From: a virus | DNA length: 64,000 nt | Direction: 5' to 3' (one strand) | IMG/VR virus record: IMGVR_UViG_3300028874_000010 | Coordinates: 1 to 64,000 of that record | Shown: positions 12,367 through 57,591 of the stretch, piece by piece | Position numbering within the stretch: the first letter of the stretch is position 1 | How the letters are laid out: each line of letters opens with the position of its first letter | Notes under the pieces: generated by a model | The model's input: the letters and a program-made list of their open reading frames with translations, nothing else | The model's database searches: none | Told to the model about the DNA's origin: nothing | Program-made: the position numbers and the translations under genes

Positions 12367-13386
12367 CTATAGCTTAGCTTTTTCAAGCTCGTCAAATTTT
12401 TGAAGTAATGTTTTCTGTTCTGATGTTAAGTTCTTTGGATATACTACTTTAATAATCATATACAAATCACCCACGGCACCACTAAACTTTTTCATTCCTT
12501 GGCCTTTCATCCTGAGTTTTTTGCCATGTGATGTTCGTTCAGGAATAGAAAGTTCTAATACATCGCCATTCAAACTTTCAACGCTGGTTTTTCCACCAAG
12601 TAAAGAAGTAGCAATTGGTATTTCTAATTCCATAATCAGATCATCGTCAGATCGCTGAAACTTTTTATGATTAAGGATTATTATCCGAACAATCAAATCA
12701 CCTGGTGGTAATTCAGAATTTTCTTTATTCCCAAGACCGGACAATTTAAACAATGCTCCATCAGGAATGCCGGGCATAATCTTCAAATCGGTTTCTGTTT
12801 CTTCTAATACAATAGAACGTCCAGAACAAACTTTACATGGATCTTCAACTTTAGTCCCCGACCCAGCACAGGTAGGACAGGTTTGCGCCATTTTAAAATT
12901 TGGATTGATCGCTCTTAAGATTTGACCTTTCCCATTACATGTGGAACATTTAACTTTTACTTTAGAAATCGATCCAGTTCCATCACAAGCTTTACACCCA
13001 ACAACGTGTTTGTATTTGACTTTTTTAGTGACACCAGAATTAGCTTCTTCTAAAGTAATATCAATTTCTGATCGCTTATCAGAATTACCAGGCATAGCTT
13101 GTTGAGCATTAACATGCTTAAAGATATCAGCAAAATCAAAGCCAAAATCTTGGGGTGCTCTTTGGCCGGGCTGTTCATGACCGAATTGATCATAATGATT
13201 TCGCTTCTCTTGGTTTCCTAGGACTTCATTTGCCTCGTTAACTTCTTTGAACTGCTCTTCAGCACCAGAATCAGTATTCCGATCTGGGTGATATTTCATC
13301 GCTAGTTTACGATAAGCTTTTTTGATGTCATCTTCTGTAGCAGTTTTAGCTACACCAAGGACTTCATAGTAATCTCGTTTTGTCAT
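12367..13386 (-). CDS. dnaJ: Chaperone DnaJ
   Basis: Full type I DnaJ architecture in 339 residues: J domain with YHPDRN, a short Gly/Phe-poor linker, four zinc-binding repeats ([32 protein letters not shown]) and the C-terminal peptide-binding domains. The linker lacks a long G/F-rich region. It recruits host DnaK to clients; phage J-proteins probably assist folding or replication-complex remodelling. Its ATG overlaps the stop of the 81-residue gene upstream. Confidence 0.93.
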
Positions 13387-21139: not shown

Positions 21140-22912
21140 TTAGAAAAGCACCAATGAATGTTTATCAGTATTCAAGTTCTCGCACGATACCAAACAAAAG
21201 GATCCGGTAGAGCGATCCCAGACATAGAACTTATGGTCCATCGTACTGTTGATAAGACCGATATATTCTATATCCAAGTGAAGATCATATTTTTCATCTT
21301 CAATCCGAGTTACTGATTTGATAGCACCAAGAGCAATAGTGTCTGCCAGACGATTTTTCACAAGCGCATGTACAGAACTATCCAAGTCCTTAGCACGCAC
21401 TTCTAGGAACGTTTTAGTCGTCTTATCGTAAGCAATCAAACGGTGTTCTGGGGATACAATATGTTCGATATCACCACACTTGATCTTCACTCCTTCGATC
21501 ACTTTTTTACTAATGCCGAGAATCTTCCTGAGGCGGTTATTATGCGTAAGAATTAAATCTCCAACATTTACGTCTTTAATTTTTACATCGAAGAATTGCT
21601 CATTTTCATAAACTATGATTTGTTCATCTTCGTGAATTGTGTCACCTTCTGTAATAAACAGCAAACATTTACTACGGTCTTTTTTTTCTGTTGCATCGCA
21701 GAACTTTGGAATCCGATTTGGATTCATCTTATCTGTTTCTTTATTTAGTTCTCGTTCTTTAGCTCGTTCAGCCGCTTCAACTTTCATTTCAACCCAATCT
21801 AACACCGATTGAATGATATCAGATTTTGTTAATTTGAGAACCATTTTATCGGTGACTTCAAATGAGGTCCCAAAATTTCTAATTTCTGTAATCAGTTCTT
21901 CTTTTGTTTGGGACGAATATCTGGGTTTGATAATTGTTGCATCAACAAATAGTTGAAGATGATTTAAAATTTCTGATGGCTTGACATCAATTTTATGTTT
22001 CTTATTGAAGTAAGCTCGAAGTTTTGTTGTGATCTGTTCTTGGAGGTATTTGATATGAACACCGCCAAGAGTTGTTTCAGTTGTATTTACGAACGAGACA
22101 TGTTTGAATCCATCTGACTTAGCAATACCAATACGCCAATGATCATTTTCTTCAAAGACATAATCCTGTGTGTAGAACTCAATGTAATCTTTAAATGACT
22201 TGATTTTGATTTGCTTTTTATTTAGGTAAATCTTTAGAGTTGGATTGCAACCAGCAATATCATAAACCCGTTTAATCAGCTTTTCATAATTTCCTTGATC
22301 TAATGAAGTCATACCAAGTTTTTGGTAATCAGGAAGATATGTAATTTTTGTGTATTTTTCTGTGCTTGTTTTAATCTTTGGTTCTGATCTAACCCGGGAA
22401 TTTTCTGTGTGTTTTTGTTCAAATTCCTTTTTGCCATCGCCTGTTTTAACAATGAAATATTGACTGAAAATATTTGTCAATGCCGCACCTTCGCCGTTTT
22501 GACCTGTCAATGTTGAGTCATCATCATCATCAAAATTACTTCCTGCTCGCAATTCAAAAATGTATTCAGGGATGTATTGGTCATATTCTGGGTTCTTGAT
22601 AACTGCAATACCACCATCATCAAGAACCGATATCTCTCCTGTTACTTGATTGATATCAACTTTAATAGTAGAGAGGTGTTGACCTTCTTTTGTTTTTGAG
22701 AAGTCTACTGAATTAGAAATAACTTCGTCAAACATTTTAATAAATCCGGGACACCAGGTCAATTCCTTTTCGGCCATACGTTGTTCTACTTCATCTACGT
22801 AATAGGTGGCCGCTGTGTGAGCCGTAATGCTTCCTAGGTATCTGCCTGGTCTGAGAAGGACATGGGAGATCTCGTCAAGCTTTTTGTGCTTGAATATTTG
22901 TTTTGTTGTCAT
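21140..22912 (-). CDS. N-terminal half of topoisomerase II large subunit (T4 gp39-like) with split-intein N-fragment
   Basis: Residues 1-424 hold the GHKL ATPase domain (DEVISNSVD, DDGG, GQNGEGAALTN), the transducer, and the start of Toprim ending CLLFITEGD, where Glu is catalytic. Residues 425-590 are an intein N-fragment beginning with Thr425 (TIHEDEQIIV), with block A-like VGDLIL and block B-like HIVSPEHRL, then a stop codon. Splicing with the 50-residue C-fragment at 19417-20184 would give a full gp39-like subunit. A Thr in intein position 1 is unusual, as Cys or Ser is the rule. Confidence 0.9.
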   Translation of the reverse strand: MTTKQIFKHKKLDEISHVLLRPGRYLGSITAHTAATYYVDEVEQRMAEKELTWCPGFIKMFDEVISNSVDFSKTKEGQHLSTIKVDINQVTGEISVLDDGGIAVIKNPEYDQYIPEYIFELRAGSNFDDDDDSTLTGQNGEGAALTNIFSQYFIVKTGDGKKEFEQKHTENSRVRSEPKIKTSTEKYTKITYLPDYQKLGMTSLDQGNYEKLIKRVYDIAGCNPTLKIYLNKKQIKIKSFKDYIEFYTQDYVFEENDHWRIGIAKSDGFKHVSFVNTTETTLGGVHIKYLQEQITTKLRAYFNKKHKIDVKPSEILNHLQLFVDATIIKPRYSSQTKEELITEIRNFGTSFEVTDKMVLKLTKSDIIQSVLDWVEMKVEAAERAKERELNKETDKMNPNRIPKFCDATEKKDRSKCLLFITEGDTIHEDEQIIVYENEQFFDVKIKDVNVGDLILTHNNRLRKILGISKKVIEGVKIKCGDIEHIVSPEHRLIAYDKTTKTFLEVRAKDLDSSVHALVKNRLADTIALGAIKSVTRIEDEKYDLHLDIEYIGLINSTMDHKFYVWDRSTGSFCLVSCENLNTDKHSLVLF

Positions 22913-38811: not shown

Positions 38812-40692
38812 CTAGTCGAAGATGAAATCTTCCCATTGTTTAAGGAATGGATATGATTGTTTTGAAGTGCCAAGCTTGATATACTCAACAGACAGTTCAA
38901 TGAATTCCTTCTGCGTTGCAGAATTTGTTTTGATAAGCATGTTTACAACATGACCAAAATATGTAGAATTATCACTGAGCAGTTTTTTAGCTCTTGCTAA
39001 TTCACGAGTTATGATATTGGTGATAGCAATATCCGATTCTTGGATTGATGTCACCCAATTAATAGGGAGTCCAGCCGATCCGTCAATTAAAACCGGAACA
39101 TTATTTTCAAATCCAAATCGTCTAACATAATTGCTGGATAGATTTGTTGCTTGGACAATATCCGATTGTGCCCCACTTGTTATATTTTCTTTGCCATAGA
39201 TTAATTCTTCCGCAGCTCGACCAGCTAACATAATACAAATAGAATCAAGGCATTGTAATTTAGTTTCTGCTTCATCTGAAGGCGCATCAAGAATATACCC
39301 ACCTTTAAATTGAGATGTATTAACCTTTACTTCGAAAGGTGCCGATTTAGTCAATAGAGAATATATCACAGCATGTCCACTTTCATGAACAGCAACTAGA
39401 GCTTTGAAATCAGCTGAAGTTTTTTTCTTGTTCTCATTCATTTCCAATTCGACTGGAAATGATGCCGAAGAATTAAAACCATTAACTACTATATGTTTTT
39501 CATCATCATGCATGAAAAGAGATAAACTCTTTTCATCATTCTCTATAGCCCAAAATGTTGCGTTAACCAGCAGATTACTGAAAATTTTGTGGATAGATGA
39601 AAATACTGGCCGAGTTCCTTGTGTCGGGAAGACCGCATTGTTATAAATCTCATCTAATATTTTTTGATCTAATGTAAAGGATATATCCGACACTTTAGAC
39701 ATTTCATCAGTGTACTTAAGACATGTTGCTTTGATCAGCTTTTGATACGACGATTTACTCATAGACGGGTAGATAATATGATTATTGCCCATGCGAGAAA
39801 TCTGTTCTGGACGAAACCGTTCTTCTAGATTTGCCTTGATTTCATTGGATGTAATATTTTTGGTAACTTCATGATAATAATCAGCATCAGTATCAGAATC
39901 ATCTGTACTTGTCGCCCCAATAAAAGCAGTATCCAGATTACCAGAAATAAAGATAACTAATTTAGAATAATCAATTTCCCAAGTAGTTCGTGAGTCACAA
40001 AATTCATGGAACACTTTTGCTATTTTTGAGGTAGACCAAGACAGAATTTCACTAATTGGTTCCTGTAGGCGCAGAAGTTTCTTTAGATTTTTTGCTTCAT
40101 ACGGATATAGCGATGTTTTTTTCTTTGGTTTGCTATCCTCATCTTCATCAGACTCATTAAGAAATTTGCCATCATCATAATCTTGCTGTGCAATCAGCAT
40201 TTCAATTTCATCAAAAACTGATGAATCAGATGAAAACTTACCATCACTTAAAAGAGTCCAGACATCTTGGTATCGTTCAACCGCAACATCTGCATCATTA
40301 TCATCAACAGTCCGGTAACGTTGGATTTCATCTAACAACAAAATACCTGGTGTGCCTTCATCAATAGATGATTGCAAAAGAACAGATGAAATCGTAGTAG
40401 GTCCATATGCTTTAATAGACCCACCATCCATTTGTATTTCTACAAACTTGGTATTAAAATCCAGTAGTGATACGATACGCCGGACTAATTGGGTTTTGCC
40501 AACACCAGTCATACCCCAAAGATTAATGATCACTGGGCGAGTAATAATTTCTGGGAAAATATACCAAGCTGAAAGAGAGTCAACAATCTTTTCAATGATT
40601 TCATCCAAACCAAAAAATTCTGTTTTCAGCTGAATTTTAACTCGGTCTAAAACTTCACGCTTTGCGGTGATTAAACTTTTATCTAACGGCAT
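38812..40692 (-). CDS. Clp-type AAA+ ATPase fused to an FtsH-type (M41) zinc peptidase
   Basis: A 626-residue protein with no membrane segment. The AAA+ module has GMTGVGKT (Walker A), ILLLDEIQ (Walker B), and ERFRPEQISRM plus GTRPVF, which are features of the ClpB-D2/ClpX clade rather than FtsH. An acidic insert (DESDEDEDSKPKKK) interrupts it. The peptidase part has HESGHAV (HExxH), AGRAAEELIYG, and GAQSDIVQATNL, whose Asp is the third zinc ligand in FtsH. A Clp-style motor fused to an M41 chamber is unusual. It could degrade tmRNA-tagged or host regulatory proteins. Confidence 0.85.
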   Translation of the reverse strand: MPLDKSLITAKREVLDRVKIQLKTEFFGLDEIIEKIVDSLSAWYIFPEIITRPVIINLWGMTGVGKTQLVRRIVSLLDFNTKFVEIQMDGGSIKAYGPTTISSVLLQSSIDEGTPGILLLDEIQRYRTVDDNDADVAVERYQDVWTLLSDGKFSSDSSVFDEIEMLIAQQDYDDGKFLNESDEDEDSKPKKKTSLYPYEAKNLKKLLRLQEPISEILSWSTSKIAKVFHEFCDSRTTWEIDYSKLVIFISGNLDTAFIGATSTDDSDTDADYYHEVTKNITSNEIKANLEERFRPEQISRMGNNHIIYPSMSKSSYQKLIKATCLKYTDEMSKVSDISFTLDQKILDEIYNNAVFPTQGTRPVFSSIHKIFSNLLVNATFWAIENDEKSLSLFMHDDEKHIVVNGFNSSASFPVELEMNENKKKTSADFKALVAVHESGHAVIYSLLTKSAPFEVKVNTSQFKGGYILDAPSDEAETKLQCLDSICIMLAGRAAEELIYGKENITSGAQSDIVQATNLSSNYVRRFGFENNVPVLIDGSAGLPINWVTSIQESDIAITNIITRELARAKKLLSDNSTYFGHVVNMLIKTNSATQKEFIELSVEYIKLGTSKQSYPFLKQWEDFIFD

Positions 40693-40778: not shown

Positions 40779-40943
40779 TCATATGACTTCCAAATTCTTG
40801 ATTATATGATTCATAGCCCATGAGATTTTGCAAATCGCATCGTAATAAATGCCTTGACGGATCAAAGCATTTACGAAATCCTTTTTCTTTTCTTCGATGA
40901 ACTTCAATTGATCTTTCGTTACAATATTCTTAGGCGTAGTCAT
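40779..40943 (-). CDS. Small hypothetical protein (54 residues)
   Basis: The ATG at 40943 overlaps the NAD kinase stop (ATGA) and the frame ends at TGA 40779. Lysine-rich helical N-terminus, hydrophobic/aromatic C-terminal half. Real by context; function unknown. Confidence 0.5.
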   Translation of the reverse strand: MTTPKNIVTKDQLKFIEEKKKDFVNALIRQGIYYDAICKISWAMNHIIKNLEVI

Positions 40944-41812
40944 TTATTCCACCCTAACTTCAGAGAAAGTTTCTCGAAGTAATTCCAATCAGCATAGTGG
41001 AGTAAAGTAACTTTCTTTTCATGTCTGGTAATAGTGATTCGTGTATCATCACCTCTCAACCTAGCAATCTCTTGTCCATCTGCTTTACATGAGACCTCAC
41101 GTCCTTTCTTGTTATGGACATCAATTGTAATTGCACTTTTACCAGATACGATAATCGGACGTGATGCCATAGTCAATGGAGCAACTGGAACAATTTCCAT
41201 GACATCTAGATCTGGCTCAATAATACTACCTCCAACCATCAGGGCGTAGGCAGTGGACCCGGTAGGTGTCGCCACTATGACACTATTAGCCTTATGTTTA
41301 CCGGCTGCTGAGGCCCCTATTTGCAAGTCATAATTTATAATTGAGTCGGAATATAAATCAGAAATAACGAAATCATTTAGTGCAAGATATTCATTACCGT
41401 TGAACTCAACGCTGAGCAATGTCCTATAATCTTTTTTAAATATTTCTTCTTGTTGAACACTGCTGGTGTAGATGAACAGTGAGTCAAACAAAATATCTAA
41501 TGTTTCTTCGGTTGCTGTCAAGTCAGTTAAAAATCCAACCTGGCCTAAGTTAACACCCAAAATAGGTAGGTTTAATTCTAGAGCTGATTTTGCCGCATAG
41601 AGAACAGTCCCATCTCCACCAACAGGAACAACAAGAGTTCTATCATCGGCTTCTTCATATGATTCAATGATTTTAATTTCTAACCATTCTGATCCAAACT
41701 GCGGATTATTTTGACGTAAAGCTAAATGCTTTTTAGCAAATGCTATAAGGCAATTTGCTAAACCGACGTTCGCTCCACCGATCTTCGGAATAAACAGAAT
41801 CTTGTTGTACAT
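40940..41812 (-). CDS. nadK: NAD kinase
   Basis: 290 residues, like bacterial NadK. It carries GGDGT (65-69), LGVNLGQVGFLTDL, LNDFVI, and TPTGSTAYALMVGGSII, all family hallmarks. It makes NADP from NAD and ATP (or polyphosphate). It is rare in phages. Next to NAMPT and NadM it suggests the phage not only rebuilds NAD but directs part to NADPH for reductive dNTP and thioredoxin chemistry. Confidence 0.93.
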   Translation of the reverse strand: MYNKILFIPKIGGANVGLANCLIAFAKKHLALRQNNPQFGSEWLEIKIIESYEEADDRTLVVPVGGDGTVLYAAKSALELNLPILGVNLGQVGFLTDLTATEETLDILFDSLFIYTSSVQQEEIFKKDYRTLLSVEFNGNEYLALNDFVISDLYSDSIINYDLQIGASAAGKHKANSVIVATPTGSTAYALMVGGSIIEPDLDVMEIVPVAPLTMASRPIIVSGKSAITIDVHNKKGREVSCKADGQEIARLRGDDTRITITRHEKKVTLLHYADWNYFEKLSLKLGWNK

Positions 41813-41815
41813 TAC

Positions 41816-42139
41816 TTAACCTTTGTATTCTGTGATCAACTTAATAAGCTGGCCTTTGGATTGACCGCCAATTGCTCTATTGACAACTTGTCCAGCCCGG
41901 AAAAAAAGTAGAGTTGGGACAGCACGAACCTGATACTCACTAGCTAATTCAAAATCCTCATCAATATCAAGCTTGACTACGAGCATAGTACTGATATTTT
42001 CTGTTGCAACCTGTTCAAGTGTTGGGGCCATTGACTTACATGGCCCACACCAAGGAGCAGAAAAGTTAACCAATACGAACTCATTCATTTTGAGAATTTC
42101 TGCTAATTCACTACCTTTGATTTGTGTAACAGCTGACAT
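41816..42139 (-). CDS. trxA: Thioredoxin
   Basis: A canonical 107-residue thioredoxin: NFSAPWCGPCKSMAP with the redox cysteines at 31 and 34, a cis-proline segment (VRAVPTLLFF) and a C-terminal helix. It would donate electrons to ribonucleotide reductase or maintain protein thiols. It lies between NAMPT and NAD kinase genes, tying NADPH supply to reduction. Confidence 0.95.
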   Translation of the reverse strand: MSAVTQIKGSELAEILKMNEFVLVNFSAPWCGPCKSMAPTLEQVATENISTMLVVKLDIDEDFELASEYQVRAVPTLLFFRAGQVVNRAIGGQSKGQLIKLITEYKG

Positions 42140-42205
42140 TTAAAAGTTTCCTTATTATTTTTTATTGTGGCTTATAAAACATTATCAAAAATGCCACTCA
42201 CCGGA

Positions 42206-42240
42206 CGCCAGCCGACAAGTGGTAAATGTGTTGGCTGGCG
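42206..42240 (-). repeat. GC-rich hairpin between NAMPT and thioredoxin genes
   Basis: CGCCAGCCGACA pairs with TGTTGGCTGGCG (12 bp with one G-U) around an 11-base loop, starting 12 bases after the NAMPT stop. There is no T-run directly after it, so it may be an attenuator or mRNA-stabilising stem rather than a full terminator. Confidence 0.45.
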
Positions 42241-42251
42241 CGCTTATAAGC

Positions 42252-43778
42252 TTACTGATTTGCCCGAATTCGAATGTCAGCAAGATTATAATCAACCAAG
42301 TTCTGTCCATTGACCCATACAGTTTCCAAAGCCTCAGTATGGTTTTCGTCAAGGTCTTCGATTCGGATGGTTTGATATTCACCTAAAAGATTCTTAGCAA
42401 CGGTCAAACGTCCTTTCTTACTTCTTTTCCCTTGATCAGTGATTGGATCCTTAAACACATCGACATACACACCGTTGATCTTTGCTGCACATGTCTTCAT
42501 TGCGAATTTCAAATCATCGCGGTTGACCATCTGAAGCAATCCACCACCTTGACCGAAGACAAGATTTTCAACGCTGTATCCAGCTTCCATCACTGCAATC
42601 AGGATACGTTCGAAGTCTTCAGAAGTAGCAAGTCCATCACCTTGAAGAATACGAACCACGTTAAGAACCTTGAAGCCCTTGTTATTGATCACAACGCCAT
42701 AATGTTCTGCGAACATATCAAGCAACGTCAGGATCACCGAAACTGGATCACCAGAATCAGGACGAACAACAAGATTGATTCCTGAATCAAGGATTTCCTG
42801 CTTCAACGTCGTGCAATAATGCATTGCAAGTTCGAAGATGTTATACCCGTCTGACACGATCGAGACGATGGTGCCTGGCGCTTTATTGTACGTACGAATC
42901 AAGTCACGTACGGTTTGCAATTCACCAGATTTGCCGCGCATCGTCATGATGCTGTGTTCTGTCGCAAAGACACTGAAAGCGGCCATCGCTTCGTTGTAAT
43001 ACACATTAGCATACAACACGCCGGTGATCGTATCCGATCCCATTGCACCAGTAGCCAAGTGAGCAAAGTCACCGATCCCAGCACTTTCTCGGCTTGACAC
43101 ACCGCGAGCACCGAAATCGTGATACATGAAAGCGATTGCTGATTCGATATCAAGATCGCTAGTCAAAGCCAAATACTTCTTGATGATGTTCCGGTTCTTC
43201 ATGCTACGAGTCGCGACAGTTACTGGATACCAAATCGCACGAAGCAAAGTGGTTTCGAAGTACGCTGCCATCCACGCAAGTTCTGGGTCCGTGCATTCGA
43301 TGGTGACTAGTGCGTTTTGAGAAGGAATCACTGTGCCCTCTGGGAGCGCCCTGATGATCAGAGGAGGATATCCTCCATAGACATTGACAACCTTTTCCCA
43401 ATCAGCACGCGGAAACATTTCACGACCACCAACGATATGAGCAGCGAAGAATTCTTCGGCTTGATCAATCATTGCATGAGTGATAGGCTTGAAACGCTTG
43501 CGCCAAAGTTGAAGACCGACGAAGAGAATCTTTTCGCCTTCAATGCGTGGTTCGATATAGGAAAATGCTGAAGTCACACCGAGAACTTTGTACATCGCTT
43601 GGTGACAAAGCTTATACGAATCTGTATCAAGGATTTCGTTATCTTCTGGGCGAGCAATGGTCCGAGGATCACCAAGTAGTTCCAGTTCTGCCCAAAGAGC
43701 AGCACGACGAAGAGCGATTGATTCGAAAGTCAGAGTGGTAGCATCAGCCACTTGATTAGTGTTAGGATACATATCCAT
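42252..43778 (-). CDS. nadV: Nicotinamide phosphoribosyltransferase (NAMPT/NadV)
   Basis: The 508-residue type II phosphoribosyltransferase is close in length to NAMPT. Motifs are DTDSYKLCHQAMY, TSAFSYIEPR, FHDFGARG-like MYHDFGARGVSSRES, ATEHS with the catalytic His, SDGYNIFE, RPDSGDP and GQGGGLLQ. It makes NMN from nicotinamide and PRPP. With the next gene upstream (NMN adenylyltransferase) it forms a two-step NAD+ salvage route, known in KVP40-like phages and as NARP2 in anti-defence work. Codon use here is more GC-rich than in its neighbours. Confidence 0.95.
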   Translation of the reverse strand: MDMYPNTNQVADATTLTFESIALRRAALWAELELLGDPRTIARPEDNEILDTDSYKLCHQAMYKVLGVTSAFSYIEPRIEGEKILFVGLQLWRKRFKPITHAMIDQAEEFFAAHIVGGREMFPRADWEKVVNVYGGYPPLIIRALPEGTVIPSQNALVTIECTDPELAWMAAYFETTLLRAIWYPVTVATRSMKNRNIIKKYLALTSDLDIESAIAFMYHDFGARGVSSRESAGIGDFAHLATGAMGSDTITGVLYANVYYNEAMAAFSVFATEHSIMTMRGKSGELQTVRDLIRTYNKAPGTIVSIVSDGYNIFELAMHYCTTLKQEILDSGINLVVRPDSGDPVSVILTLLDMFAEHYGVVINNKGFKVLNVVRILQGDGLATSEDFERILIAVMEAGYSVENLVFGQGGGLLQMVNRDDLKFAMKTCAAKINGVYVDVFKDPITDQGKRSKKGRLTVAKNLLGEYQTIRIEDLDENHTEALETVWVNGQNLVDYNLADIRIRANQ

Positions 43779-43846
43779 TTTAAATCACCTTTAATATTAG
43801 ATTATTTTAGTTGAAGCATGGTCAACCCATGCCGATTTGCTACTAT

Positions 43847-44905
43847 TTAGAAATTGCCACGATCAATAAAATATGTCGCGATATGGAAATGATCGGCAAA
43901 CATGATCATTTCCATCTTACGAAATTCTGCAAAAGTGAACCATCGTGCTTGTCTAGCGTCATCCATTCCTTTGACCTTTGGCAATCCTTTGCCATGTTGC
44001 TCGAGAGGGATATAGGCTGCTTCTGTAATATATCGACCACGAAGATCTCGATCTGGATGCATAAAGATTTTCTGCTCTTTAACTCGAGCACGAAGAACTG
44101 ATTCCATTATATCAAGTTGCGTTTCTTCTACCAATTCACGAATCCCGCAATCCAGAAATGTCATATCAATCTTGATATTTTTTGCAGGGTTTGCTTTAAG
44201 ATTCATATGACCACCCGGTAAAGCCCATAGATCCATCCCTGGCGCTTTATCACGTTGAATCAAAAGAATATGTCCAGACTGGGTGACAACAGTGTCGCCT
44301 GCGACGAATGGGACATCATAGGGAGCAAATGCCCAATCTCGTGCATGGCTGTCAAGATATTTTTGTTCATTGAGTACATAGGCATATCCTTCACTGGACT
44401 CGAACTCTTTTAGATATTGGAAAACATTTTGCGGGACATATAAAGGTGCACCGGCCATGAAGTGCCGCTTGAAATAAGCTTCACGTAGATCAGTTGCATT
44501 GATTGTTTCTTTTGCCGGAGATTCAATGTGGCCAAATTGAGGAAACTTATTCAGATAGTACGAAGTATGATCTTTCGTATACCCAATTAACGAAACTCGT
44601 TTGGCACCATTCCGGTTCTTGTTGATAGCACGTTGAACACCTTCGATCCAACCATCTTCATTGTAAGGCCTATCACGAAGAGGTTCGAACGAAACACGAT
44701 CTAATTCTTCTCGTGTGAGCGAGCCCTGAATCATCTGGATCCGTTCTTGATAAGACCATGGATTTTTAGGTGTACGTGGTTGATTGGCACTACCGATGAG
44801 AATGACAAGCCGTTCTGCTAGTTTAAGTGCTTCTTTGATAGTCAGTTCATGGCCAAGATGATATGGCTGAAACCGCCCGATATATGATAATAAATCGTAT
44901 TGCAT
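43847..44905 (-). CDS. nadM: Bifunctional NMN adenylyltransferase / Nudix hydrolase (NadM-Nudix)
   Basis: Start chosen at ATG 44905 (MQYDLLSYIGRFQPYHLGH), which has AGGG nine bases upstream; ATG 44914 sits too near it. The N-terminal nucleotidylyltransferase domain has GRFQPYHLGH (10-19). The C-terminal Nudix domain has PGGHMNLK followed after an insert by CGIRELVEET. It converts NMN to NAD; the Nudix part may hydrolyse ADP-ribose. KVP40-type phages carry the same fusion. A late box lies about 80 bases upstream. Confidence 0.92.
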   Translation of the reverse strand: MQYDLLSYIGRFQPYHLGHELTIKEALKLAERLVILIGSANQPRTPKNPWSYQERIQMIQGSLTREELDRVSFEPLRDRPYNEDGWIEGVQRAINKNRNGAKRVSLIGYTKDHTSYYLNKFPQFGHIESPAKETINATDLREAYFKRHFMAGAPLYVPQNVFQYLKEFESSEGYAYVLNEQKYLDSHARDWAFAPYDVPFVAGDTVVTQSGHILLIQRDKAPGMDLWALPGGHMNLKANPAKNIKIDMTFLDCGIRELVEETQLDIMESVLRARVKEQKIFMHPDRDLRGRYITEAAYIPLEQHGKGLPKVKGMDDARQARWFTFAEFRKMEMIMFADHFHIATYFIDRGNF

Positions 44906-44981
44906 ATAGGACATCCCTATTATTTTTATGTTGATGAAAGTTGTTGAGACGAAATCCACTTTCGTCTTTTTGCTACAAAAG

Positions 44982-52088: not shown

Positions 52089-53612
52089 TTAGTTATTTTT
52101 GGTCCCGTTGGCAATGTATTCAGTATCCATTTCACCAATGATTGTACTGGGTGACTCGATGACTACATCAAATTCCCAGAGATTAGCAAGATGACCGATA
52201 GTCTCTTTAACCGAGTCATCATCAAGTGGCCTATTCAAATACGGAGTATGAACGATGGTTAGAGTTCGGTCACCAAGAATATCTACATTATCAACTTGAA
52301 GATCCGGAACCCAGTTTGCTCGGTTATAACTTTCAGAAAGTGAATTCCGGACTTTGATATAACCATCATCATTATGGATTGCAGAAATCTCGACAAAATT
52401 CTCTTCTTGAATATCCGTAATAGAAAAGAATTTAAAATCACGAATTACTTTTGGAGACAAAAACTGTGCTATGAATGAATCATCTTTATAATTCTCCATT
52501 GCATCTTTAACAACAGGAAGCCATGGTGTCCCAGCAAACTTTGGAAACCAATGACGGTCTTCTTCTGTAGGGTTTTCACAGATTCGTTTGATATCCATGA
52601 AGATAGCAAACCCGAGTGCATACGGATTAATTCCGCTGAACCAGCGCTTATCAAATTCTGGTTGATACACCACATTGGTATGTGATGCTAAAAATTCTAT
52701 ATATGACCCAGATGAAACAAGACCTTTTTCATATAGCCGTGTCATAATGAAGTAATGCGTGAATGTTGCAAATCCTTCATTTAAGACTTTGGTTGATCCT
52801 TGTGGATAAAAGTACTGAGAGACTTTACGAACAATGCGGATGATTTCACGTTTCCAAGATGGTAAATCTGGTGCATATTTTTCAATGAAGTACAAGATAT
52901 TATCTTCCCGATCTGCTGGGAATTTTTCATCTTTGGCGTTTTCTAACGTGTTATTTTTCGGGACTGTTTTATCCCAGATAGGATTGAAATCAATACGGGC
53001 TTGTTCAAGCCGTTCCATCGCCCGCTTTTCTTCATCACTTGCACTGATAGATGGAGGGCGCTTATATCGATCAATCCCATAATTCATTAATGCATGGCAA
53101 CTATCTAAAAAGGCTTCAACTTCAGCAACCCCATATTTTTCTTCACACTTTGCAATATAGTTCTTGGCAAACAACAAATAATCAATAATTGCTGAAGCAT
53201 CAGTAAATTGTTTGAACATGAAATTGTTCTTGAACACTGCTGAATGTCCAGCCGATGCGTGAGCCATGACCAAACATTGCATAGTCATGTTGTTTTCTTC
53301 CATGAGATATGCGATACATGGATCTGAATTAATCACGATTTCATACGCTAGACCCATTTGGCCATGTTGGTATGATTTATAATTCTTCAGGAATTCTTTT
53401 CCAAACGACCAATGCTTATACATGATTGGAAGACCAGTTGATGCATAGGCATCAATCATTTGCTCGGCTGAAATGACTTCCATTTGAGGCCGATAATAAT
53501 CAAGCTGAAGTTCTTCCTTAGCGATCTTTTCGATTTCAATCCAAGTCTTTTCAAGAAGATCAAAAGACCAATCTTGACCTGGCCCAAACAGCGGTTTATT
53601 TTTCTTAGCCAT
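52089..53612 (-). CDS. SpoVR family protein
   Basis: A 507-residue protein matching SpoVR/YcgB in length and character: YRPQMEVISAEQMIDAYASTGLPIMYKHWSFGK, a conserved HASAGHSAVFKNN segment, PQGSTKVLNEGFATFTHYF and SGINPYALGFAIF. The biochemical role is unknown. In bacteria it is encoded with PrkA and YeaH and is linked to starvation and sporulation. All three genes are here in the same order. The start at ATG 53612 has GGAAAG. Confidence 0.92.
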   Translation of the reverse strand: MAKKNKPLFGPGQDWSFDLLEKTWIEIEKIAKEELQLDYYRPQMEVISAEQMIDAYASTGLPIMYKHWSFGKEFLKNYKSYQHGQMGLAYEIVINSDPCIAYLMEENNMTMQCLVMAHASAGHSAVFKNNFMFKQFTDASAIIDYLLFAKNYIAKCEEKYGVAEVEAFLDSCHALMNYGIDRYKRPPSISASDEEKRAMERLEQARIDFNPIWDKTVPKNNTLENAKDEKFPADREDNILYFIEKYAPDLPSWKREIIRIVRKVSQYFYPQGSTKVLNEGFATFTHYFIMTRLYEKGLVSSGSYIEFLASHTNVVYQPEFDKRWFSGINPYALGFAIFMDIKRICENPTEEDRHWFPKFAGTPWLPVVKDAMENYKDDSFIAQFLSPKVIRDFKFFSITDIQEENFVEISAIHNDDGYIKVRNSLSESYNRANWVPDLQVDNVDILGDRTLTIVHTPYLNRPLDDDSVKETIGHLANLWEFDVVIESPSTIIGEMDTEYIANGTKNN

Positions 53613-53624
53613 TATTCTTTCCAA

Positions 53625-53861
53625 TTAACGTGCAAATTTTATTGCACTATCTACTTCATCACCAAAGGCCACTTTATCACAATCCGGATAAAACCACGCG
53701 ATACACCCAGTAGGTAGTTCGATTTTGAATTCATCTATTTTATCAGCTATGAATTCATAACGAGCTAGAATTATTTCTAACTCTTCCTGAGTATATTTTG
53801 TGCTAAGCCTGTCATTTAGTTTTCTTTTCAAACAATTTTTTGAACACTGGATAGATCTCAG
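53625..53861 (-). CDS. Hypothetical small protein between SpoVR and YeaH genes
   Basis: The C-terminal about 60 residues (KYTQEELEIILARYEFIADKIDEFKIELPTG...) look protein-like. The start is uncertain because the only Met codons lie inside the YeaH-like gene; ATG 53861 is used here. It ends 12 bases before the SpoVR start. Confidence 0.45.
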   Translation of the reverse strand: MRSIQCSKNCLKRKLNDRLSTKYTQEELEIILARYEFIADKIDEFKIELPTGCIAWFYPDCDKVAFGDEVDSAIKFAR

Positions 53862-55119
53862 CATCTTCATAGACATTAGCCATTTGAAAATTCTCAAAAT
53901 CTTTCTTTACATTTTCATAGGTCGTCCAAATATCACTTTGATATCCTGGTGTTGTTCCAACTTGGATGTACCCAAAATATTGGACATAAGGCATAATATC
54001 ATCGCAGAGCAATTCATAGCACGTGCCATTGTCGGTGTCCCAATTATCACCGTCCGAACATTGGCAAATATACACGTTTGTTGAATTATCAGAATAATCA
54101 TCCTTGATAATCTTAGATGCCAAATCCAATGCAGACGAAACCATTGTCCCGCCACTATCTCGAGTATTAAAGAATGTATCTTCATCAACTTCAAAAGCTT
54201 CAGTGGTATGGTAAATAAACCTAAGTGAAACCTTTTCATACTTACGAACTAAAAACATATACAACAAAGCAAAGAATTTTCTAGACAATGTCTTTTCATG
54301 AGGGCCCATAGATCCAGAATTGTCCATAATGCAGATCATCACAGCATTTATTGCTGGGTGTTCAACTGCAACAGTTGAATGATACCTAAGATCCAATGGA
54401 TCAAGAAATGGAACATTTTCCATCTTCACTTTATACCCAGTAATCTTCTTCTGAAGTTCTACTTTACGATTCTGTAATTCTTGATCTTCTTCGGCAGATC
54501 TAACAACAGCTTGAATCAATATAGCTTCAATTTGATTCAATTCATCTTGCGCGGCCTTCAATCGTTTCTTATAAGGGGCACGCTGTGAGATCCTACGTGA
54601 ATGTGAATTTCGGAGTGATTTACTCCGATCCAATTTTGCTGGCGTCCCATTTGTAGTGTGTCCAGCATTATGATGTTTAATTTCAATAACTTCTTTTAGA
54701 CCTTCCTTAACAAGATCTGGAAGCTCCAAATCTTCAAAGAAATATTCCAGAAATTCATCACGTGTAATTTCTACTACAAAGTCATCTTCACCAGACCCAT
54801 CAGGCGAACCCTTCTTGCCAAAGCCACCTCCAGTCTTTGGCGGCTTTCTGAATTTATCACCGGCATTAAAATCTTGGTTACCAGGTCTAACGGCTTCATA
54901 TGTCCCGCCTTCACCATGCCTAAAATTTGGTTCGCTGATACTTTTTTGTGGGATATGGATTACTCCACCATCAGAATCAATATCTTCAATTTTACGAGAA
55001 TTGATAATATCCGGCAAAGATTTTTTAACAGATTCACGAATTCGTTTTAGAAACTTTTGACGGTTATCTAATGACTTTCCCTTACCGTTTGGGCGCCGAT
55101 CTACAATAGAGAAGCTCAT
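53812..55119 (-). CDS. YeaH/YhbH family protein (DUF444, VWA-like)
   Basis: A 435-residue protein. It has the N-terminal DRRPNGKGKSLDNRQKFLKR, a central charged region with RISQRAPYKKRLK, and the VWA-like domain with MDNSGSMG as MIDAS and SGGTMVSSAL. It matches bacterial YeaH, the partner of kinase PrkA (YeaG) in stress and nitrogen-starvation responses. A phage copy in a trio with PrkA and SpoVR is unusual. Confidence 0.92.
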   Translation of the reverse strand: MSFSIVDRRPNGKGKSLDNRQKFLKRIRESVKKSLPDIINSRKIEDIDSDGGVIHIPQKSISEPNFRHGEGGTYEAVRPGNQDFNAGDKFRKPPKTGGGFGKKGSPDGSGEDDFVVEITRDEFLEYFFEDLELPDLVKEGLKEVIEIKHHNAGHTTNGTPAKLDRSKSLRNSHSRRISQRAPYKKRLKAAQDELNQIEAILIQAVVRSAEEDQELQNRKVELQKKITGYKVKMENVPFLDPLDLRYHSTVAVEHPAINAVMICIMDNSGSMGPHEKTLSRKFFALLYMFLVRKYEKVSLRFIYHTTEAFEVDEDTFFNTRDSGGTMVSSALDLASKIIKDDYSDNSTNVYICQCSDGDNWDTDNGTCYELLCDDIMPYVQYFGYIQVGTTPGYQSDIWTTYENVKKDFENFQMANVYEDAEIYPVFKKLFEKKTK

Positions 55120-55120
55120 A

Positions 55121-55345
55121 TTATTCTTTTCCTGAAGTAGGAGTTATTTTAATTCTACAAGCAAATAACTGATTGGTGACGTTAGCTGATGGCCCATTAT
55201 TTTCCAAGAGCACAGCTTGTTCACATGTCTGAGCATGAGCTATTGCATCATTTGCTTTGACATTGTAACTCCAAATGAAGAAACCAAGCCCAAGAATAAC
55301 ACTTGCAACCGCTATCCAAAATGCGCACCAAACATTATCTCTCAT
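55121..55345 (-). CDS. Small membrane-anchored protein
   Basis: A 74-residue protein with one N-terminal transmembrane helix (about residues 6-28) and a short outer domain with two Cys. It sits between the PrkA and YeaH genes, one base before the latter. Confidence 0.5.
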   Translation of the reverse strand: MRDNVWCAFWIAVASVILGLGFFIWSYNVKANDAIAHAQTCEQAVLLENNGPSANVTNQLFACRIKITPTSGKE

Positions 55346-55452
55346 AATACTTTCTCATTATCAAATTATATGCGATCTCTAGAAATTAATCTAGAGGCCT
55401 CTTCTCTCTACTTATATTAAATTTTAGGAAAATCTTTATAACATATATCTAA

Positions 55453-55483
55453 GAAGGTTACTCCGTAATATGGAGTAACCTTC
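55453..55483 (-). terminator. Hairpin after the PrkA gene
   Basis: A 12-bp perfect stem GAAGGTTACTCC/GGAGTAACCTTC with a 7-base loop, 20 bases downstream of the PrkA stop. It lacks a clear T-run, so it could attenuate rather than end transcription. Confidence 0.5.
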
Positions 55484-55503
55484 CTCAAATTCTATTGCGA
55501 GAA

Positions 55504-57444
55504 TTACTGATTTTTACGGATACGTAGCCACCATTCAACAAGTAGACGGGTTTGGCGTTGCGTATAACCCTTATCGGCCATCCGCTTGACAAATGATTCA
55601 TGAGCTTCTTGATCCTTCTTTGATCCTTTAGAAGTGAAGCTGATCACTGGTAGAATTTCTTCTGTCCCAGCGAACATTTTCTTTTCAATAACTTGGCGCA
55701 TCTTTTCAAAGTCGTTCCAGGCAGGCATATTGCCTTTATGGCCGGCTTTATGGCGAAGCACAAAGTTAACAACTTCATTCCGGAAATCTTTCGGGTTCAC
55801 AATACCTGCAGGCTTTTCAACTTTTTCTAGCTCAGCATTCAATGTCGAGCGATCAAATTGTTCGCCAGTATCAGCATCACGGAAATCTTCATCGCGGATC
55901 CAGAAATCTGCATATTGGACATATCGATCAAAAATGGTTTGGCCATAATCGCTGTATGAATCCATAAAGGCAATCCGGATTTCCTTTTCAACGAACTCAG
56001 CATACTTGTCGCCAAGTTGGTGCTTAATCAAATTGATCAGGTGTTCTTCACGATCTGATGGAAATTGTTCCTTGACGATTTCATTTTCCAAGACATACAT
56101 CAAGTGAACCGGGTTAGCACCGATTTCTTCAGTATCAAAGTTAAATACCTTTGATAGGATCTTGAATGCAAATCGGGTCGAGATTCCGTCCATGCCTTCA
56201 TTGACACCAGCAACATCCTTATATTCTTGGAGCGGCTTAGCACGTGGATCAACATCTTTGATATTTTCGCCATCATAGACGCGCATCTTGGAATATAGAT
56301 TCGAATTGGCTGGTTCAACCAACCGGGACATGACTGCAAACTTGGCAAGCATTTCAAGAGTTTCTGGTGCAAATGGAGACTTGGCCAATTTACTTTTCGC
56401 CAACATCTTTTTATAGATGCCGACTTCTTCACTAGCACGTAGGCAATATGGAATCTTGACAATGTTAACACGATCCAAGAACGCTTCATTGTTCTTGTTG
56501 TTACGGAAGGTCTTCCATTCACTTTCATTGGAGTGAGCAAGAACAATGCCATCGAAAGGAATACTGGAAATAGAATCTGTTCCGTTGTAATTCTTTTCTT
56601 GAGTTGCTGTCAAGAGTGGATGAAGCATCTTGATTGGGGCTTTGAACATTTCGACAAAGTCCAAGATCCCTTGATTAGCATTACATAGACCACCGGAGAA
56701 GCTATATGAATACGGGTTATCTGCAGCGTATTCTTCTAACATCCGGATATCAGTTTTACCAACCAGTGTCGTAATGTCTTGGTTGTTTTCATCACCAGGT
56801 TCTACTTTAGCAATCGCAATATTATTCAGAATGGAAGGATATTGCTTGATTACAGTCAATGACGAATGATCACCTTTCAGGTCTTCAAGCTTTTGCGCCA
56901 GCCAAGGAGACATTTTGACTCGAAATGCACTTGCCGGAATATCATATTCTTCTTCAAGGGCAGCACTGTGAAGATCGACATCAAAGATGGAAAGAGGATT
57001 ATCATGAATTGGAGAACCTTTGATGAAATAGATTGGTTCCTTTTCCATCAGTTCTTTCAACTTTTCGGCGATCGACGATTTACCACCACCGACGGGTCCG
57101 AGTAGATAAAGAATTTGTTTACTTTCTTCAAGGCCTTGAGCACTATGCCGGAAGTAAGAAACAATTGATTCGATTGCATCTTCCATGCCAAAGAAATCTT
57201 TGAAGGCTGGATAGATTTTGATGATGCGATTTGAAAAAATGCGGCTGAGGCGAGCATCAGTTTTTGTATCAACGAATTCCGGTTCGCCGATTGCCTTGAG
57301 CATACGCTCGGCTGGCGAAGCATAAACCGAAGGATCACTTTTGCAAAGATTCAAATATTCTTGAATCGACATTTCTTCCTGGGTGTTACGCTTAGCGTAA
57401 TCATTGGAAAATCTCGCCAGTACGCCCGAGTGTGCTTTGGACAT
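55504..57444 (-). CDS. PrkA-type serine protein kinase/AAA+ ATPase
   Basis: 646 residues, full length for PrkA (YeaG). Start ATG 57444 with GGAG. It has an AAA+ module with LLGPVGGGKSS (Walker A), FDGIVLAHSNESEW as the family motif after Walker B, and VKIPYCLRASEE; a C-terminal kinase-like part follows. PrkA proteins are stress-linked kinases or AAA+ regulators that work with YeaH and SpoVR. The three-gene set may push infected cells into a stress-tolerant or translation-adjusted state. Confidence 0.93.
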   Translation of the reverse strand: MSKAHSGVLARFSNDYAKRNTQEEMSIQEYLNLCKSDPSVYASPAERMLKAIGEPEFVDTKTDARLSRIFSNRIIKIYPAFKDFFGMEDAIESIVSYFRHSAQGLEESKQILYLLGPVGGGKSSIAEKLKELMEKEPIYFIKGSPIHDNPLSIFDVDLHSAALEEEYDIPASAFRVKMSPWLAQKLEDLKGDHSSLTVIKQYPSILNNIAIAKVEPGDENNQDITTLVGKTDIRMLEEYAADNPYSYSFSGGLCNANQGILDFVEMFKAPIKMLHPLLTATQEKNYNGTDSISSIPFDGIVLAHSNESEWKTFRNNKNNEAFLDRVNIVKIPYCLRASEEVGIYKKMLAKSKLAKSPFAPETLEMLAKFAVMSRLVEPANSNLYSKMRVYDGENIKDVDPRAKPLQEYKDVAGVNEGMDGISTRFAFKILSKVFNFDTEEIGANPVHLMYVLENEIVKEQFPSDREEHLINLIKHQLGDKYAEFVEKEIRIAFMDSYSDYGQTIFDRYVQYADFWIRDEDFRDADTGEQFDRSTLNAELEKVEKPAGIVNPKDFRNEVVNFVLRHKAGHKGNMPAWNDFEKMRQVIEKKMFAGTEEILPVISFTSKGSKKDQEAHESFVKRMADKGYTQRQTRLLVEWWLRIRKNQ

Positions 57445-57591
57445 TAACAACTCCTATTATTTTCAAAGTTTTGATTGAGAGAAACTACTGGTGAATCTAC
57501 TACTATTATTTTGTGGTTCAGCATAAATACGATTTTTACACACAAGTTTTTTATTGTAAATCAAATTAGACTTGTTATTATGCTTTGCAGC

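Follow-up and report, generated by a model that had tools for sequence, protein, structure and literature searches.

To our knowledge, the M41 zinc peptidase is known only behind the membrane-bound classical AAA motor of FtsH. A gene in the window analysed here, a stretch of 64,000 nucleotides, raises the question of which motor drives such a peptidase and whether its product is still an FtsH. The window comes from a virus record of 112,368 bases, whose large-phage genes include those for topoisomerase II of the T4 type and for nicotinamide phosphoribosyltransferase. The gene in question occupies positions 38812..40692 on the minus strand, to which all window coordinates below refer, and encodes a Clp-D2-type AAA+ module fused to an M41 peptidase in 626 amino acids. 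Its start is the ATG at 40692, with a TTG one codon upstream as a further possibility, and its stop is a TAG (38812-38814).

Profile and fold matches delimit an HSP100/Clp D2-type AAA+ module with large and small subdomains (residues 1-412; 39457..40692), followed by an M41 zinc peptidase domain (residues 414-626; 38815..39453) that was identified by PF01434, the FtsH protease profile and superposition on 2di4. In Pfam, Peptidase_M41 matches the C-terminal third above the curated cut-off (E 3.2e-24), and the AAA matches upstream of it are weak. Among the NCBIfam models, ClpB (9.2e-10) and ClpA (2.4e-8) match residues up to about 390, and the FtsH family model matches the protease part only (model positions 406-597 of 598), as it does in the other family members scanned. 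The PHROGs split the protein in the same way, assigning the C-terminus to a phage FtsH family and the ATPase to a Clp-type 'ATP-dependent protease', and neither they nor Pfam or NCBIfam contain a model for the whole Clp-motor/M41 architecture. Full-length homologues with 37-56% identity occur in many phages and bacteria and, together with the near-invariance of the active-site residues described below, place this architecture far beyond chance. The M41 half is the more variable one (29-41% identity to the window protein, versus 42-64% for the AAA+ half).

The type of motor was inferred from the ATPase half alone. When compared with PDB sequences, an ATPase-only profile of 16 members retrieved ClpC (1.3e-10) and then ClpB, ClpE, ClpA and Hsp104, and a profile of 69 members retrieved ClpE (4.3e-21) followed by ClpC, Hsp104, ClpB and ClpA, with FtsH not among the matches listed for the latter (best 60). 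The AlphaFold2 model of this half (pLDDT 91.4, pTM 0.89) led to the same group of proteins. All of the best 50 Foldseek matches listed were ClpA, ClpB or ClpC, and in VIA-align the best match was Skd3, a human single-ring HSP100 (Z 22.9, 3.0 A, 298 residues), with Z of 20-23 to Skd3, ClpC, ClpB, ClpA and ClpX and nothing other than HSP100 proteins or ClpX in the best 50; FtsH was absent from the best 50 matches listed in both fold searches. The protein carries a Walker A motif GMTGVGKT (residues 60-67; 40492..40515), a Walker B motif ILLLDE (residues 117-122; 40327..40344) and a sensor-1 asparagine, Asn252 (39937..39939). It also meets the core features of the HSP100 D2 type, namely a finger of the FRPEFxNR type and a GxRP sensor 2: RFRPEQISR (residues 292-300; 39793..39819), with R300 as candidate arginine finger, aligns with FRPEFINR of ClpC, and GTRP (residues 359-362; 39607..39618) aligns with GARP of the same protein. 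These two motifs had been claimed as HSP100/Clp features in a preliminary description of the locus, which would have been refuted by domain HMMs placing the ATPase in the FtsH clade. That outcome did not occur, and structure prediction, also proposed there as a check, bears the description out. By profile and predicted fold the ATPase groups with ClpB, ClpC, ClpA, Skd3 and ClpX, outside the FtsH clade, and it does not qualify as a classical AAA domain with a second region of homology. An FtsH-clade ATPase is ruled out by the ATPase-only profiles and fold searches, both of which point to HSP100/Clp D2.

Some parts of the motor are less clear. Pore loop 1 could not be located, as residues 93-99 are gappy in the alignment and coincide with a drop in model confidence, and no IGF/IGL-like tripeptide of a ClpP-docking loop is apparent in the ATPase sequence of the window protein. 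An insertion in the large subdomain contains an acidic and then lysine-rich stretch (about residues 178-196; 40105..40161), which is variable in the family alignment, has low pLDDT at residues 179-193 and is probably flexible.

One could still suppose that the protein is an ordinary FtsH that has diverged and lost its anchor, its motor being a classical AAA module whose Clp-like motifs arose by convergence. The M41 half is clearly FtsH-like, and Foldseek puts FtsH first when the full-length model is used, because two domains then match; the pTM of that model is 0.57 and its relative domain placement is unreliable. However, the ATPase on its own is of the HSP100 D2 type in both sequence and predicted fold, with FtsH outside the matches listed, neither the Arg-Pro of sensor 2 nor the finger arginine varies among the members, and the FtsH family model is reached through the protease part only. 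An explanation by divergence from FtsH is thus scarcely tenable.

FtsH is a membrane-anchored enzyme with one or more N-terminal transmembrane segments and a second region of homology (PMC9020784). In the window protein the AAA+ module is not preceded by an N-terminal extension, and a hydropathy scan found no transmembrane segment in the chain, the maximum over 19 residues being 1.21 as compared with 3.21 in the canonical FtsH of phage PA5oct. The absence of an anchor is in line with the preliminary description, as is the contention that the combination is unlike FtsH, of which the family model fits the protease half only. Mitochondrial AAA+ proteases without their transmembrane span do not form hexamers, and YME1L required an added coiled coil (PMC5095350); a self-assembling HSP100 motor, by inference, would make a membrane anchor unnecessary. 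Like FtsH, YME1L and AFG3L2, the window protein has the M41 domain C-terminal to the AAA+ module on one chain, an HExxH motif with a distal Asp, and the TSGAxxD and AEE motifs. Those enzymes, however, combine a classical AAA motor with a membrane anchor, and the window protein has an HSP100/Clp D2 motor and no membrane segment. M41 proteases of large phages are not new as such, since the Pseudomonas jumbo phages MIJ3 and PA5oct, which are close relatives, encode FtsH (PMC6892783). The annotated FtsH of PA5oct was considered as a family member and rejected: unlike the window protein it is a canonical FtsH, containing a membrane-spanning segment and driven by a classical AAA motor. A fragment in MT836215 is also FtsH-like, as judged by reading its sequence only.

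The peptidase contains the zinc-binding and catalytic motif HESGH (residues 436-440; 39373..39387), with H436, E437 and H440, and an expected third zinc ligand, D511 (39160..39162), within TSGAQSD, which aligns with TTGAENDLQRAT of FtsH. An M41-only profile retrieved FtsH protease domains (1.8e-30) and aligned HEAGH with HEAGH and TSGAxxD with the same FtsH segment. In the full-length model, the M41 half can be superposed on 2di4, a protease domain of FtsH (VIA Z 18.8, 2.8 A, 163 residues). Two phage proteins (L138 and L170) carry HEAGH on inspection, and no S16 Ser-Lys peptidase was found in the window protein among the Pfam matches to E 1. Conservation was counted over 155 non-redundant members, some of which do not cover every position. 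H436, E437, H440, R300, N252, R361 and P362 are present in all 155, K66, D121 and D511 in all 154 that cover the respective position, and E495 in every member covering it; T67, E122 (kept in 153 of 154), Q297 and N303 deviate in one sequence each. Judging from this alignment, selection maintains both motor and peptidase in nearly all of the lineages identified. The full set of M41 zinc residues claimed earlier is therefore present, and inactive peptidase residues, the other finding that would have spoken against the preliminary description, are ruled out by their retention across the family; activity itself is inferred.

Conserved residues alone do not specify what the enzyme does with its substrates. 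It might act mainly in unfolding or disaggregation, as ClpB and Skd3 do, with the zinc peptidase kept for a non-proteolytic purpose. Skd3, the best match by fold, is a disaggregase, and DnaK-like and DnaJ-like genes lie just downstream of the protease gene in one group of five phages (L160, L167, L169, L175, L178), a neighbourhood that also fits a role in proteostasis. However, only 3 of 19 large phages tested have DnaK and most lack it, and the HExxH motif and the third-ligand Asp are kept in all 155 and all 154 members, respectively, in contrast to the FtsHi pseudo-proteases, from which zinc-binding motifs are missing. A purely non-proteolytic role is thus improbable. The window itself contains a DnaJ-like gene (12367-13386, minus strand; phrog_14336) in which a J domain and CXXCXGXG repeats can be read, and a search for DnaK across the 112 kb record that includes the window found none.

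Very probably, the protein is a soluble, cytosolic and presumably hexameric ATP-dependent zinc protease with an HSP100 motor and an M41 peptidase on one chain, where activity, oligomeric state and substrates are inferred in the absence of biochemical data. Six chains would form a ring through their HSP100/Clp D2-type AAA+ modules, working as a HCLR-clade motor with a trans arginine finger and a sensor-2 arginine. Substrate would be drawn through the pore of this ring and straight into a second ring formed by the M41 domains of the same chains, so that motor and chamber would share a single polypeptide, an arrangement also found in FtsH and Lon. A self-compartmentalised protease, as suggested in the preliminary description, would follow naturally by inference. 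The classical AAA module of FtsH would thereby be replaced by an HSP100 motor, which would permit assembly without a membrane tether. With ClpB, ClpC, the D2 of ClpA, Skd3 and ClpX the protein shares the predicted ATPase fold, the Walker motifs, the FRPEFxNR-like finger and the GxRP sensor 2. In contrast to the window protein, these have no peptidase on the chain and act alone or with ClpP, and the window protein has neither an N-domain nor a D1 ring. Lon is likewise a single-chain AAA+ protease with a HCLR-clade motor, a single ring and a C-terminal peptidase, but its peptidase is the Ser-Lys type S16 and not zinc-dependent M41. Thus, the window protein belongs neither to FtsH, as it has no anchor and a different motor, nor to Clp, as its peptidase is fused. 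The open literature yielded no account of M41 joined to a Clp-type motor; since the search was limited mainly to open papers, an earlier report cannot be excluded. A natural and conserved family of this kind shows that motor and peptidase are exchangeable in evolution, and would supply a soluble zinc AAA+ protease amenable to detergent-free study.

The family extends to bacterial chromosomes, beyond what a single sequence could show. Searches of viral contigs with a widening profile yielded 2, then 9 and then about 79 loci, many on contigs of 200-550 kb; a terminase match above the cut-off was present in 11 of 21 viral records tested, the window's own record being counted and lacking one. Bacterial genomes contributed at least 80 loci, and those named belong to Comamonadaceae, Sphaerotilaceae, other Burkholderiales or unclassified Pseudomonadota. 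Of 250 genomes in the family to which one Variovorax genome belongs, 28 carried the gene (one or two of these copies being partial), as did 4 of 397 genomes in a phylum sample. A second, distant bacterial clade with 30% identity to the window protein was represented in another order, by 13 of its 63 genomes analysed, and no match to the protease family was found among PLSDB plasmids. In a tree of 83 members, which was rooted at the midpoint and has several long branches, each of the two bacterial clades is a single group inside the phage diversity, and the phages split around both. The viral locus L114 joins the Burkholderiales clade with a support of 100. This topology, together with the placement of L114, suggests an old phage family that entered bacteria on at least one occasion and probably on two, and the Burkholderiales gene appears to be of phage origin, the direction of transfer being inferred from a midpoint root. 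Alternatively, the split of the phages could stem from multiple transfers from bacteria to phages.

Roughly half of the Burkholderiales loci have the protease gene near hrpA and argA, a recurrent chromosomal position. Directly upstream of the protease gene, 57 of 80 Burkholderiales loci encode a conserved basic protein that is only about 80 residues long, and in the four Sphaerotilaceae loci inspected the stop of this small gene and the start of the protease gene overlap as ATGAATGA or ATGAGTGA. The pair is not confined to a single chromosomal site. In the 250-genome sample the small gene was adjacent in 22 of the 28 protease-positive genomes and gave a strong match in 3 of the 222 protease-negative ones (Fisher p 4e-23, with the reservation that relatedness makes the genomes non-independent). 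Of the regions fetched around these three exceptions, two (L187, L188) show an argA-like reading frame, so that there the small gene seemingly stays at its usual place without its partner. The small protein matched no family in Pfam or NCBIfam, and no homologue of its gene was found in the window or the phage loci. Its role is inferred: it may be an adaptor, a regulator or a privileged substrate of the protease, and the gene pair offers a directly testable candidate adaptor. Whether these proteins form a separate soluble HCLR/HSP100-M41 protease class that diversified in large phages, was captured by bacteria at least twice and there gained a dedicated upstream adaptor or regulator is, in our estimate, evenly balanced. 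In five loci of the second clade (L103, L104, L106, L107, L108) the protease gene is located between hisF and the hisE-tat genes, with one extra ORF after hisF in L106; in some other loci of this clade it is found elsewhere.

In phages, the neighbours of the protease gene vary between loci, and the enzyme most likely would serve targeted or quality-control proteolysis within the infected cell. The family as a whole suggests a phage-encoded proteolysis system with a possible part in host takeover. Large phages process head proteins, and instead of degrading proteins generally the enzyme could be dedicated to processing one or a few substrates, for instance structural proteins of the phage. Such a function would agree with L114, where virion genes are found within about 3 kb of the protease gene, among them that for a major head protein about 3 kb downstream. 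Most phages, however, have no conserved structural gene next to the protease, and bacterial chromosomes retain the gene beside housekeeping genes, so that a dedicated processing role is unlikely. L114 (1114-8934) is a smaller phage or prophage contig on which an IHF-like gene can also be read.

Other genes of the window deserve mention. Genes for SpoVR (PF04293, 1.5e-155), a DUF444/YeaH protein (5.6e-148) and a PrkA/YeaG kinase (1.1e-158) are clustered at 52089-57450 (minus strand), a group that resembles the bacterial YeaG-YeaH-SpoVR stress cluster. The large subunit of topoisomerase II (21140-22912, minus strand) matches its own PHROG over residues 8-424 of 590 only, and the remainder after FITEG looks intein-like. 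A cluster for NAD metabolism (40940-44959, minus strand) adjoins the protease gene and comprises NAD kinase, nicotinamide phosphoribosyltransferase and an apparent fusion of NMN adenylyltransferase with a Nudix domain, with a thioredoxin-like gene in between.
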